Shown in pieces: positions 41,488-46,077 of a stretch of DNA of 64,000 bases. The DNA comes from Mesoterricola sediminis (GTDB lineage Bacteria > Acidobacteriota > Holophagae > Holophagales > Holophagaceae): contig NZ_AP027081.1 in NCBI RefSeq assembly GCF_030295425.1, positions 2,959,001 to 3,023,000 on the forward strand. Direction: 5' to 3'. The position numbers were made by a program, and so were the translations under genes. How positions within the stretch are numbered: position 1 is the stretch's first letter; each line of letters starts with the position of its first letter. Below the pieces are notes generated by a model. The model ran no database searches. It saw only the letters and a list, made by a program, of their open reading frames with translations, and was not told where the DNA came from.

Positions 41488-43599
41488 ATGCCCTTCCTTC
41501 GCGCCCTGTTCCTGGTCCTGGCCGTGCTGCCCCTGGCGGCCCGGCCCCGCCCCCTCCCCCTGAAGGCGGCGGGCCTGGCCGCGCCGGGGGTGGCCCTGTT
41601 CGTGCCCCAGGGACTGGATCCCGCGGCCCTCCCCCCCTCGCCCGCGCTGGTCGCCCAGCCCGCCTTCCAGGCCCCCCTGCCCCACGCCTGGCGGCTGCGT
41701 CCGGCCTTCTCCCAGGATGGCGACCGGACCACGGCCCGCTTCCGCCTGCCCGCGGACGTGGACCTCTACGGCACCGGCGAGGTCACCGGCCCCCTCCGGC
41801 GCAACGGCACCCGCATCGAGCTCTGGAACACCGACAACTACGGCTACGGCAAGGCCGGGGGCCGGCGCCTCTACCAGAGCCACCCCTGGGTCCTCGGCCT
41901 GCGGCGGGACGGCACGGCCTTCGGGCTCCTCTTCGATTCCAGCTGGAAGGCCGACCTGGACTGCCGGGACGGCGTGGCCTTCACCTGCCGGGGCCCCGCC
42001 TTCCCGGTGCTCGTCATCGAGCGCGCGTCGCCCGCGGCGGTGCTGCGGACGCTGGGGGACCTGACGGGGCGCATGGACCTGCCGCCGCGCTGGGCCCTGG
42101 GCTACCAGCAGAGCCGCTACTCCTACGCGCCCGGCGCGCGGGTCCGGGAGATCGCGGCGGCCTTCCGCGCGCGCCGCATCCCCTGCGACGTGCTCTGGCT
42201 GGACATCGACTACATGGACGGCTACCGCATCTTCACCTTCGACCCCAAGGGGTTCCCCGACCCCGCGGGCCTCAACGCCGAACTCCACGCCCAGGGCTTC
42301 CGCACCGTGTGGATGATCGACCCGGGCGTGAAGGCCGAGGCCGGCTTCGCGGTCCGGCGGAGCGGGGACGCCCTGGACGCCTGGGTGAAGGACGCCTCCG
42401 GCGCCCCCTGCGTGGGCGAGGTGTGGCCGGGCGACTGCGTCTTCCCCGACTTCACGCGCCCCGAGGTGCGGGCCTGGTGGGCGGGCCTCTACGGCCCCTT
42501 CCTCGCCCAGGGCGCGGACGGGATCTGGAACGACATGAACGAGCCCGCGGTCTTCGGGACCCCCGACGGCACCCTGCCGGAGGACAGCCGCCACGGCGGC
42601 GGCGGCGGGCTCCCCCCGGGCCCGCACCTGCGCTACCACAACCTCTACGGCACGCTCATGGCGCGGGCCACCCGGGAGGGCATGCTCGCCGCCCGCCCGG
42701 GGCTTCGCCCCTTCCTCCTCACCCGGGCCGGGTTCCTGGGCTCCCAGCGCTACGCCGCCACGTGGACCGGGGACAACACCTCCACCGAGCGGGACCTGCG
42801 CCAGGCCATCCCCATGACCCTCAACCTCGGCCTCTCGGGCCAGCCTTTCAACGGCCCCGACCTGGGCGGCTACGCCGGCGACGCCACCGGCGAGCTCTGG
42901 GCCCGCTGGTGCGCCTTCGGGGCCTTCTTCCCCTTCGCCCGGGGCCACGCCGCCAAGAATGCCAACGCCAAGGAACCCTGGGCCTTCGGGCCGGAGGTGG
43001 AGCGCACCTGCCGCATCGCCCTCCAGCGCCGCTACCGCCTCCTGCCCTACCTGTACACCTGTTTCCGGGAGGCGGCGGAAACGGGCCTCCCCGTGCTGCG
43101 GCCCCTGTTCCTGGCCGACCCCGCGGATCCGGCCCTGCGCCAGGAGGCGCGGGCCTTCCTGCTGGGCCCCGATCTGCTGGTGGTTCCCGCCTGGGCCGCC
43201 GACGCGCCGCGGCCCCGCGGCAGGTGGCTGCCCCTCTCCCTCGTGGAGGGCGACCTGGACGACCCCCTCCAGGCCCGCCTCTACCTGCGGGAGGGCGCCA
43301 TCCTGCCCCTCGGCCCCGTTGTGGAGACCACCGCCCAGGCCCCCGAGGGGGCCACCACCCTGGCCGTGGCGCCGGACGCCGCCGGCCACGCCGAAGGCCG
43401 GCTCTACCACGATGCCGGGGAGGGGTTCGCCTACCGCGCCGGGGACTACCGCCTGGTGACCTACCGGGCCAGCCGCGTGGACGGCACCCTCCAGGTGCGG
43501 GAGGCCCGGGTGGAAGGGCGCCGCCCCGCGCCCCCCCAGCCCTGGACCCTGCTGGAGCTGCGGGCCGGGGCCGACCTCAGATCCGCACCCCCACGCTGA
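41488..43599 (+). CDS. Secreted glycoside hydrolase family 31 alpha-glucosidase-like enzyme
   Basis: 703 residues with a signal peptide (MPFLRALFLVLAVLPLAA). An N-terminal beta-sandwich (about 30-190, with DLYGTGEVTGPLRRNG and WNTDNYGYG) precedes the TIM barrel. The catalytic nucleophile lies in DGIWNDMNEPAVFG (Asp about 349), and WTGDNTSTERDL contains the general acid. LWLDIDYMDGYRIFTFD and QSRYSYAPGARVREIA complete the GH31 set. A C-terminal beta-sandwich follows (YLREGAILPLGPVVE). It should hydrolyse alpha-glucosides in the periplasm or outside. Its 3' end overlaps the convergent outer-membrane-like gene by 23 bp. Confidence 0.93.
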   Translation: MPFLRALFLVLAVLPLAARPRPLPLKAAGLAAPGVALFVPQGLDPAALPPSPALVAQPAFQAPLPHAWRLRPAFSQDGDRTTARFRLPADVDLYGTGEVTGPLRRNGTRIELWNTDNYGYGKAGGRRLYQSHPWVLGLRRDGTAFGLLFDSSWKADLDCRDGVAFTCRGPAFPVLVIERASPAAVLRTLGDLTGRMDLPPRWALGYQQSRYSYAPGARVREIAAAFRARRIPCDVLWLDIDYMDGYRIFTFDPKGFPDPAGLNAELHAQGFRTVWMIDPGVKAEAGFAVRRSGDALDAWVKDASGAPCVGEVWPGDCVFPDFTRPEVRAWWAGLYGPFLAQGADGIWNDMNEPAVFGTPDGTLPEDSRHGGGGGLPPGPHLRYHNLYGTLMARATREGMLAARPGLRPFLLTRAGFLGSQRYAATWTGDNTSTERDLRQAIPMTLNLGLSGQPFNGPDLGGYAGDATGELWARWCAFGAFFPFARGHAAKNANAKEPWAFGPEVERTCRIALQRRYRLLPYLYTCFREAAETGLPVLRPLFLADPADPALRQEARAFLLGPDLLVVPAWAADAPRPRGRWLPLSLVEGDLDDPLQARLYLREGAILPLGPVVETTAQAPEGATTLAVAPDAAGHAEGRLYHDAGEGFAYRAGDYRLVTYRASRVDGTLQVREARVEGRRPAPPQPWTLLELRAGADLRSAPPR

Positions 43600-44326
43600 A
43601 GGTCAGGGCCGTCAGGGTCCGGCCGAAGGCGGACAGGGCCTCCAGGCGCACCCCGAGTTCCACCGGGGCGAGGACGACGCCCGCCCCGACGTGGGCGCAG
43701 GGCCGGAACCGGGAATCGGCCAGGGCCTGGGTCTCCCGGTGGCCGCACAGGCCCCTCCGGGGGACGGCGGGGGCCGGCAGCCAGGCATTGGGGGCGGCCC
43801 GATGGACGGGCCGGAGGTGGGGGGGCTGCCGGGAGACGACGGCCGGTGCGGGGGCCCCCGCCCGCCCATGCTGGTGGCCGTCCCGGTGGCAGTCCGCCAC
43901 GGACCGGGGGACGAACCGCTCGTGGTGGCTGGCCAGCCGCGCGACGCCCACCCCCACGGACAGGAAGGGGCCCGTCCCCACCCCCGCGGGGTAGTGCCGG
44001 AAGGCCACCCCCGCCCCGTAGCGCCGGAGCGTCACCGCCCCGTCCCGGTCCCCGGCCAGGTGCGCCTCGCCCAGGGCGTGGGGCCGCCAGGCGCGTCCAT
44101 CCGATCCCATCGCCAGGCCGACTTCCAGGCGCAGCTCCTGGCGCGCCCCCAGCGGCTGGGCGAGGGCGAGGCCCAGGTCCCAGCCGGAGCGGCCGCAGGA
44201 AAAGCGCTCCCGGACCCCACCCGACGGCTGGTAGAGCCCCACCTGGAAGCCGAAGCCGGCCTCTCCCGCCTGGAGCCCCGCGGCGAGCAGGGCTCCGCCC
44301 AGAAGGGTGATCATGCGATGGGTCAC
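43577..44326 (-). CDS. Putative outer-membrane beta-barrel-like protein with a His-rich loop
   Basis: 249 residues from a GTG whose GTGA overlaps the stop of the upstream protease gene; an internal ATG four codons later lacks a ribosome-binding site. After a short signal peptide (MITLLGGALLAAGLQAGEA) the chain alternates polar and hydrophobic residues in strands such as FGFQVGLYQPSGG, GWDLGLALAQPLG, GTGPFLSVGVGVARLA and LTALTFSVGVRI, the last resembling a terminal barrel strand. A His/Cys-rich segment in the middle (SVADCHRDGHQHG) is likely a surface loop and could bind metal. I recognise no family. It is co-translated with the retropepsin/PDZ protein. Confidence 0.6.
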   Translation of the reverse strand: MTHRMITLLGGALLAAGLQAGEAGFGFQVGLYQPSGGVRERFSCGRSGWDLGLALAQPLGARQELRLEVGLAMGSDGRAWRPHALGEAHLAGDRDGAVTLRRYGAGVAFRHYPAGVGTGPFLSVGVGVARLASHHERFVPRSVADCHRDGHQHGRAGAPAPAVVSRQPPHLRPVHRAAPNAWLPAPAVPRRGLCGHRETQALADSRFRPCAHVGAGVVLAPVELGVRLEALSAFGRTLTALTFSVGVRI

Positions 44327-45492
44327 GGTCCATGTCCTTTCCGCTCGCCACCCTCGCCCGGATAGGCGAGGCGGGCCAGCACGCCCTCCCGCCGGATGAT
44401 CCAGGCGTGGGGCGCCCCCCGGCGAACCCAGCCAAGGATGCCGCGCCGGGTCAACCGGTTCCCGGCCAAGGGCCCCACCCGCACGAGCACATCCCCGACG
44501 CGGCAGCCCGCCCGATCCATCCCGCTGCCGGGCCGGACGGCGATGACCCGCAGGACCGCGGGCGACACGCCGCGATTCCAGGCCACCGGCAGCGTCCGCG
44601 ACGCGGGGCGCCGGAGGGGCATGTCCAGGGCCCGGTCGGCCGGAACCTCCAGGCAGGGGACGGCAAAGTCGAAGCCCACGGCGCACCCGGACCAAAGATC
44701 CAGGCCCAGGAGCCCGCGACCGTCCGGGGCGCAGCAGTCCACGGGCACCTCCCGCCACCGGAGTGCGCCCGCGCGGACCTCCTCCAGCCACCCCACGCGG
44801 CTGCGGGTCCGGGTCCTGGACAGGCCCGCCCCCTCCACCCACGCGCGGCCCGGAGCGGGGCAGCGGTCCGGCGGGACCTGGACGCCCCCCATGCTCCCCG
44901 TGTCCACGTCCGCCAGCAGCGTCCCGCCGCCGGCGCGCAGCTCAACCTGCGGTGGCGCCCCGGGCACCCGGCGCAGGGGCACGGACCGGGTCCGGCCCGG
45001 AAGCCGCCGCCCCGGCCACCACCGCCGCCGGGGCAGGTCCAGGACGAAAGGGAATTGCTCCAGAAGATCCATGCCCAGGACCCCATCAATGGGGGCATCC
45101 TCCAGAGGACCGAAGGACCCGCGCAGATCGACCCGCACCACGGGCACGTTCGTCCGCACGAAGCCCGGGAAGGCCAGGCCGTGGAGACGCGCCCGGGCAC
45201 CCTCCACCCGGACCCCCGTGATATCCCAGACCGGAACGCTCCGGCCCTCGTCGCGCACGAACCGGGCCGGCATCGCCGCGTCCACCAGGGTGGCGCTGGC
45301 GCCCGTATCCAGGAGGAACCGGAAGGTCCGGTCCCCCTCCCCGGCCCGGCTCGAAGCCAGCCGCACGGCCACGATGCAGAACCCATCCTCGTTGACCTCC
45401 AGCGGCACGCCCGCAGGGCCGACTGAGGCGGGCAAGGACCCGGCAAGGCCGATCGCCGGAACCGCGGCCAAAGCTATCACCCATCTATTCAC
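44323..45492 (-). CDS. Retropepsin-like aspartyl protease with C-terminal PDZ domain
   Basis: 389 residues from a GTG with GGGAG 6 bp upstream; a GTG four codons earlier has no ribosome-binding site. An N-terminal hydrophobic stretch (VIALAAVPAIGLAGSLPA) is a signal peptide or anchor. The first aspartyl-protease half has FRFLLDTGASATLVDAA, and GVLGMDLLEQFPFVLDL is the conserved strand after it. The second half has LLADVDTGSMGGVQV and GLLGLDLWSGCAVGFDF, so two DTG motifs are fused in one chain. A PDZ-like domain ends the protein (VLRVIAVRPGSGMDRAGCRVGDVLVRV). It should cleave or bind peptides outside the cytoplasm. Its stop overlaps the barrel-like gene, and it is divergent from the double-glycine peptide gene across 183 bp. 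Confidence 0.8.
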   Translation of the reverse strand: MNRWVIALAAVPAIGLAGSLPASVGPAGVPLEVNEDGFCIVAVRLASSRAGEGDRTFRFLLDTGASATLVDAAMPARFVRDEGRSVPVWDITGVRVEGARARLHGLAFPGFVRTNVPVVRVDLRGSFGPLEDAPIDGVLGMDLLEQFPFVLDLPRRRWWPGRRLPGRTRSVPLRRVPGAPPQVELRAGGGTLLADVDTGSMGGVQVPPDRCPAPGRAWVEGAGLSRTRTRSRVGWLEEVRAGALRWREVPVDCCAPDGRGLLGLDLWSGCAVGFDFAVPCLEVPADRALDMPLRRPASRTLPVAWNRGVSPAVLRVIAVRPGSGMDRAGCRVGDVLVRVGPLAGNRLTRRGILGWVRRGAPHAWIIRREGVLARLAYPGEGGERKGHGP

Positions 45493-45675
45493 GGCTTCTC
45501 CCACCCGTCATTAAAGAAACCTAAAAAGGTCTGAACAGCCCATGAAATAGGGACCTTCAGCCCACGCTATGACTTACGACAAACCTCCAAAAGGTTCCTT
45601 GACGGGGATCCCCCCGCGCCGACGTTGATCCCAGCCCGGGCCCTTCCAGAACCCCTTTTTCCCACGGAGGAAACC

Positions 45676-46011
45676 ATGACCTTCAAGCACGCAGCCCCCC
45701 TGTGCCCCCACGCCCCCAGGACGCTTGATCCTGACGCCCTGGCCGGCGTCCGGGGCGGCCAGGGCCCCGCCCATGAAATCACCACCACGATCAACCAGGG
45801 CCCCGGCAGGGCGGTCTTCGGATCGATCGACTACACGCACCGGTTCCCCAACGGCATCTCCCTGGGTGGAAGCGTCAGCCGCCAGGGAGGCCGCACCGCC
45901 GGCGGAATCCAGGTGGGTGGCGCCTGGGGCGACCACGGCACCTGGAGCGCGGGCGCCACCCGCCAAAGGGGGGAGACCGGCGTGGTCTTCCGGGGCGGCT
46001 TCCGCTGGTAG
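45676..46011 (+). CDS. Double-glycine-leader peptide precursor with glycine-rich repeated core
   Basis: 111 residues; ATG preceded by GGAGG at ideal spacing. Residues 1-28 look like a secretion leader of the double-glycine type: TLDPDALAGVRGG fits L(-12), L(-7), V(-4), G(-2), G(-1). The predicted core (29-111) is about 24% Gly, has no Cys, is net basic and ends in FRW. It contains two similar units, around SVSRQGGRTAGG-x-VGGAW and GATRQRGETG-x-FRGGFRW, sharing RQxGxT and a GG-aromatic end, suggesting duplicated beta-hairpins of bacteriocin or attacin-like character. No C39 peptidase, ABC exporter or immunity gene is in the window. It is divergent from the retropepsin/PDZ gene and followed by a strong palindrome. 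The function is inferred from pattern only. Confidence 0.65.
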   Translation: MTFKHAAPLCPHAPRTLDPDALAGVRGGQGPAHEITTTINQGPGRAVFGSIDYTHRFPNGISLGGSVSRQGGRTAGGIQVGGAWGDHGTWSAGATRQRGETGVVFRGGFRW

Positions 46012-46019
46012 ACCCATCC

Positions 46020-46051
46020 CCCCCGCGCCGGGCCGCGGCCCGGCGCGGGGG
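46020..46051 (+). terminator. Strong GC palindrome after the peptide gene
   Basis: 15-bp arms (46020-46034 and 46037-46051) are perfect reverse complements with only two bases between, so the RNA hairpin has about 14 pairs. It begins 9 bp after the stop. There is no T run, only CCCCTTTG, so it may be a weak or factor-assisted terminator, or a stabiliser of the short transcript. Confidence 0.5.
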
Positions 46052-46077
46052 CGTCCCCTTTGAGGACCGGCCGGTTG

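Follow-up and report, generated by a model that had tools for sequence, protein, structure and literature searches.

A candidate orphan double-glycine precursor with a glycine-rich, basic core in Mesoterricola sediminis

A small gene of Mesoterricola sediminis may encode an orphan double-glycine precursor that is exported by a stand-alone C39-peptidase ABC transporter encoded elsewhere in the genome and that acts as an antimicrobial. We assign this reading, taken as a whole, a probability of about 0.4. The open reading frame (ORF) was found in the window, by which we mean the whole stretch of 64,000 nucleotides that was analysed, and its translation (45676-46011, forward strand) yields 111 amino acids followed by a stop codon. 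The initial annotation had described it as a candidate secreted peptide with a double-glycine leader; the observation was confirmed, and the interpretation is partly supported. The features of the locus are as follows:

45505-45675, no strand: divergent intergenic region between the aspartyl protease gene (reverse strand) and the ORF (forward strand), presumed promoter region
45518-45530, no strand: palindrome 1, AACCT-AAAA-AGGT, possible operator (sequence)
45582-45596, no strand: palindrome 2, AACCT-CCAAA-AGGTT, possible operator (sequence)
45666-45670, forward strand: Shine-Dalgarno sequence GGAGG, 5 bases 5' of the ATG (sequence, pattern match)
45676-45759, forward strand: 28-residue double-glycine leader, MTFKHAAPLCPHAPRTLDPDALAGVRGG (sequence, leader patterns)
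45760-46008, forward strand: 83-residue core (residues 29-111), Cys-free, Gly-rich, basic
45871-45927, forward strand: core unit 1 (S66-W84), SVSRQGGRTAGGIQVGGAW (sequence)
45952-46008, forward strand: core unit 2 (G93-W111), GATRQRGETGVVFRGGFRW (sequence)
46020-46051, forward strand: 14-bp GC stem with a 4-nt loop, 3' of the stop codon, terminator-like, without a T run

The ORF is very probably a real gene, because it combines a Shine-Dalgarno sequence, codon bias, a gene call, an AT-richer upstream region and a 3' stem. With the codon usage of the neighbouring genes as reference, the codon log-likelihood was 0.16 bits per codon in the ORF frame and -0.22 to -1.12 in the other five frames. 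This is lower than in the neighbouring genes (0.29-0.61 bits per codon), yet positive. A simple gene caller picks the ORF, with the divergent aspartyl protease gene on one side of it and a NERD-helicase gene on the other, and gene calling found no better candidate overlapping it at this locus. The intergenic region upstream has a GC content of 55%, compared with 73% for the window, and a consensus scan of 45505-45675 found no sigma-70-type site. The two palindromes in this region, AACCT-N4/5-AGGT(T), are spaced 64 bases apart, and for the second one 0.27 chance occurrences are expected in the window at one mismatch or fewer. The first was not seen upstream of the other precursors of the genus described below, and there were no further copies of either in the examined stretches of the same genome. 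Downstream, the 65 nt from 46006 to 46070 have a folding energy of -42.4 kcal/mol (z = -2.8); the stem at 46020-46051 is not called by the terminator consensus scan.

The leader carries hydrophobic residues at -12, -7 and -4 and glycines at -2/-1, as double-glycine/C39 peptides do. These are L17 (-12), L22 (-7), V25 (-4) and G27-G28 (-2/-1), located in the segment LDPDALAGV followed by R-GG, and the initial annotation had placed all of them, including the end of the GG at residue 28, correctly. Among called proteins, which total 111,664 residues, the L-12/-7/-4/GG motif was counted 29 times (2.6e-4 per residue); control motifs in which the spacing was shifted gave 16-23 occurrences. For the leader zone of the approximately 11 small genes of the window, about 0.08 occurrences are expected by chance. 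Alone, the motif is suggestive: moderate evidence, not proof. Three leader DNA patterns run against the whole genome recovered, apart from the ORF, no plausible small gene that has an SD in front of its ATG; precursors that use a different start codon or whose leaders diverge may escape these patterns. In a profile made from nine leaders of the genus, which overfits, the ORF leader scored 6.7, while left-out true leaders scored -0.6 to 36.7. The ORF matched neither the NCBIfam bacteriocin leader model TIGR01847 up to an E-value of 10 nor Pfam Bacteriocin_IIc up to an E-value of 1.

A genome-wide search for a C39 peptidase/ABC exporter, proposed initially as a check, gave matches to Pfam Peptidase_C39 at two loci, one at 4031769 (E 1e-35) and one at 2812842/2808824. 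The first (L034, 4.03 Mb, spanning about 4.028-4.033 Mb) is an intact stand-alone operon for an HlyD adaptor, a C39-ABC protein and a second ABC protein. The best NCBIfam model for the C39-ABC protein is TIGR03796 (NHLP exporter), with 623 bits vs. a cut-off of 853, and its sequence contains Q, Cys, His and Asp residues that we take, from what is known of C39 peptidases, to be catalytic. The same genome hence holds a C39-ABC exporter with catalytic residues, a feature demanded of double-glycine/C39 peptides. The ORF lies 1.03 Mb from this operon and about 0.19 Mb from the second locus, and no precursor gene was found beside the operon. A gene for an Rce1/CPBP-type membrane protease (L034 5285-6022, reverse strand) lies downstream of it in the same orientation, at a distance of 68 bases. 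Proteases of this kind go with some bacteriocin loci, and the gene is a candidate immunity gene; it was not seen after the orthologous exporters. At the second locus (L035, 2.81 Mb), LanB, HlyD, C39-ABC and ABC genes form a lanthipeptide-type cluster. Between 7798 and 13849 of L035 (approximately 2.809-2.815 Mb), the C39 gene of this cluster is split by an insert of about 4 kb, which carries a Mu-transposase-like (IS21-type) transposase/ATPase pair and further genes. Because the C39-ABC gene is split in this way, the cluster is probably inactive.

A search for homologues with variable cores and a conserved leader had also been proposed. Related bacteria have double-glycine precursors with other cores, but none of our searches found a homologue of the ORF itself. 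With a pattern combining SD and leader, eight clear precursors were detected in genomes of the same genus, among them MSLNNRRPTVLSEIELDQIRGG, MNVIQRPANILSEDSLDQICGG and MDTLNRLISLSEKELSHVNGG. The cores of the genus precursors comprise 76-105 aa with 8-22% Gly and a net charge of +1 to +5; the core of the ORF has 83 aa, 24% Gly and a charge of +4. Five genus precursors, from G001, G003, G004 and G005, align as a Gly/Ala-rich family (alignment A2), which is scattered over four genomes at the following positions:

L116 1047; L119 2884; L121 4928 (reverse strand); L122 4418; L117 4905 (reverse strand): members of the Gly/Ala-rich family

This family is absent from the genome of the ORF, and it gave no family match above cut-off. 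Its members come near bacteriocin models (TIGR01847, 15.0 bits vs. 15.7; Bacteriocin_IIc, E 0.001), and two genus precursors match such models weakly. They share with the ORF the leader logic, a similar core length and charge, and a scattered position relative to a stand-alone orthologous exporter. Their cores, however, are hydrophobic and look unrelated, whereas the core of the ORF is devoid of hydrophobic Gly/Ala stretches. A second precursor family (L115 4009-4329 and L118 4777-5067) has the core YLMPGGIRD...PDPNYSV...RLASGYGKPH and no Pfam match. In G001 (L134 7021-7709, reverse strand), two small genes in tandem, whose products look like nitrile-hydratase-type leader peptides, lie beside an NHLP-like exporter.

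Exporters similar to the operon at 4.03 Mb are encoded in G001, G003 and G004, with C39-ABC proteins that are 58-59% identical. G004 has a single C39 exporter, orthologous to the L034 trio (58% for C39-ABC, 57% for HlyD). Its C39 gene is located at 4.41 Mb of a 5.25-Mb contig and the three precursors at 0.04, 0.45 and 0.92 Mb, which corresponds to distances of 0.9-1.8 Mb on the circle. Export in trans, with scattered precursors and one exporter, looks normal in the genus, and given the layout in G004 the 1.03 Mb between the ORF and its putative exporter are no objection to export. Directly observed are the gene signals, the leader positions, exporter genes that encode the catalytic residues, and a relative with one stand-alone exporter and scattered precursors. 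The leader interpretation is plausible and is strengthened by this genomic context, and we consider it probable that the product of the ORF is exported.

Unlikely, though by no means negligible, is that the N-terminus resembles a leader by chance and the ORF encodes an ordinary small protein of the cytoplasm or envelope, or is a young lineage-specific gene. In favour of this stand the orphan status of the gene, its position outside any cluster, the lack of a match to bacteriocin leader models and the 0.08 chance motifs calculated for the small genes of the window; the correct spacing of hydrophobics and GG, the Gly-rich basic core that follows directly, and the use of the double-glycine/C39 route in the genus argue against it.

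The 83-residue core was initially described as Cys-free, net basic and about 24% Gly, and we found just this: no Cys, 20 Gly (24%, compared with 21% in the whole 111-aa protein), eight R+K vs. four D+E, and a pI of 11.5. The duplication claimed for it was somewhat overstated. Both units contain R-Q-x-G-x-T, but the best self-alignment of the core (score 40 vs. a shuffle mean of 27) was reached by 2.25% of shuffles and lies in another register than S66-W84/G93-W111. The internal repeat is weak. An amphipathic strand periodicity was considered and rejected, as hydrophobic alternation did not exceed that of shuffles. Single-sequence structure models, with a mean pLDDT of 40 and 50, consist mostly of strands at low confidence, and the Foldseek matches of these models were meaningless.

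Six-frame searches against 60 near genomes, and against 396 from the phylum, turned up no homologue of the core or the ORF and gave chance matches only, mostly in long or wrong frames. Two scans covering 84,980 species genomes, IMG/VR, phages and plasmids likewise found no homologue of the core; on the species collection and viral contigs these scans detect close relatives only, and distant ones could exist. The initial annotation recognised no family for the core, and the core had no family match above cut-off in any search made. A match to DUF5639 (PF18690; 17.2-17.8 bits, E 0.004-0.006, gathering cut-off 25 bits) was given by none of eight controls, which were the reversed core and seven shuffled versions of it, and equally weak sub-threshold scores are spread across the relatives. 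It was dropped because it is below the cut-off and relatives show comparable weak scores.

For the exported antimicrobial that we propose, we infer recognition, cleavage, export and function as follows. The 28-residue leader would be bound by a C39-peptidase ABC transporter, for which the stand-alone trio near 4.03 Mb is the likeliest candidate, and the C39 domain would cleave after G28. The 83-residue peptide, Gly-rich, Arg-rich and strand-prone, would then exit through the type I channel and most likely act as an unmodified bacteriocin/microcin-like antimicrobial against the envelopes of competing bacteria. Antimicrobial action is our first choice because it is the commonest known role of double-glycine exported peptides, and, given export, we regard it as somewhat favoured. 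The absence of a homologue of the core or ORF in our searches, the low leader-profile score of 6.7 and the unmatched bacteriocin models speak against an exported antimicrobial, as do the chance expectation of about 0.08 leader motifs, the neighbourhood of the ORF, the length of the leader and the missing hydrophobic Gly/Ala stretches.

Class II microcins have leaders of 15-18 aa and 12-26% Gly and are encoded near a peptidase-containing exporter; the core of the ORF, with 24% Gly, falls inside this range, and its size is below 150 aa, as in class II microcins (PMC11494933). Shared with class II microcins and colicin V-type peptides are the hydrophobic residues at -4, -7 and -12 of a double-glycine leader, and the presence of a C39-ABC plus HlyD exporter in the same genome. 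In contrast to class II microcins, the leader comprises 28 aa when counted from the SD-preceded ATG, the exporters lie at distances of about 0.19 and 1.0 Mb, and an adjacent small membrane immunity protein is missing among the called neighbours. Moreover, the core is basic and strand-prone (in a low-confidence model), lacks the hydrophobic Gly/Ala segments of class II microcins and matches no family. We file the ORF as a candidate double-glycine/C39-exported peptide and not as a class II microcin. Insect attacin, diptericin and gloverin have a basic Gly-rich core and an aromatic C-terminus like the core of the ORF, which may serve as a lead; the ORF has no Pfam match and a different secretion route, and we claim no relationship.

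The best alternative to an antimicrobial role is a structural or matrix role, in which the Gly-rich, strand-forming core would assemble extracellularly into a component of biofilms or surface fibres. It takes this place because EbfG1-4 of Synechococcus elongatus are also homologue-less double-glycine peptides with C39-aided export, and three of them form amyloid. EbfG1-4 are small proteins whose export is aided by the C39 transporter PteB and whose mature parts have no homologues elsewhere (PMC4997328), and EbfG1-3 are the amyloid formers (PMC4997328, PMC9981879). The likeness to the ORF, judged from published descriptions, lies in the double-glycine motif, the C39 transporter and the homologue-less mature part; the EbfG genes, unlike the ORF, are linked in one operon. 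The high Gly content, the weak internal repeat and the strands modelled at low confidence would suit a fibre. With just two weak repeat units, a strongly basic core, hydrophobic alternation not above shuffles and a gene that is not beside the exporter, we nevertheless judge such a role quite unlikely. For a pilus-like peptide, also suggested initially, no evidence was found.

The called neighbours of the ORF are the aspartyl protease gene (44323-45504, reverse strand), a gene for a 249-aa protein (43577-44326) and the NERD-helicase gene; among them there is neither an exporter nor a modification enzyme, nor any immunity gene that could be recognised. The 249-aa protein was rejected as a relative, having no similarity to the ORF on comparison. 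The helicase neighbour has relatives, with nothing useful seen upstream of them; this covers the relatives read in the right orientation, not the reverse-strand loci L061 and L063. It seems improbable to us that the ORF is a component of a RiPP system or a peptide signal tied to the divergent protease gene. The protease homologue in G003 adjoins an ATP-grasp peptide maturase-like gene and a C39 exporter, but the homologues in G001 and G010 and the second copy in the present genome have no double-glycine peptide or exporter among their called neighbours, no maturase lies next to the ORF, and a signal of 83 aa would be long. In G003 (L133 79-2616), the protease homologue with the maturase-like gene (TIGR04187, below cut-off) and the stand-alone C39 exporter beside it is a possible graspetide locus. 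Least probable is a chance open frame: GC-rich DNA yields many long frames and the ORF has no homologue, but the SD, codon bias in this frame only, the AT-rich upstream region, the hairpin after the stop and the lack of a better overlapping candidate speak against it.

By itself, a single orphan gene whose leader is plausible is modest news. If the product is exported, its core would be unlike any described double-glycine peptide. That it represents the first of a new type, basic, Gly-rich and strand-forming, and released via a stand-alone exporter serving scattered, fast-changing precursors, is an idea we put forward with considerable doubt. Export of the peptide would also indicate that this bacterial group has a layer of unlinked precursors and stand-alone exporters, and such a layer would escape searches demanding a precursor beside its exporter.
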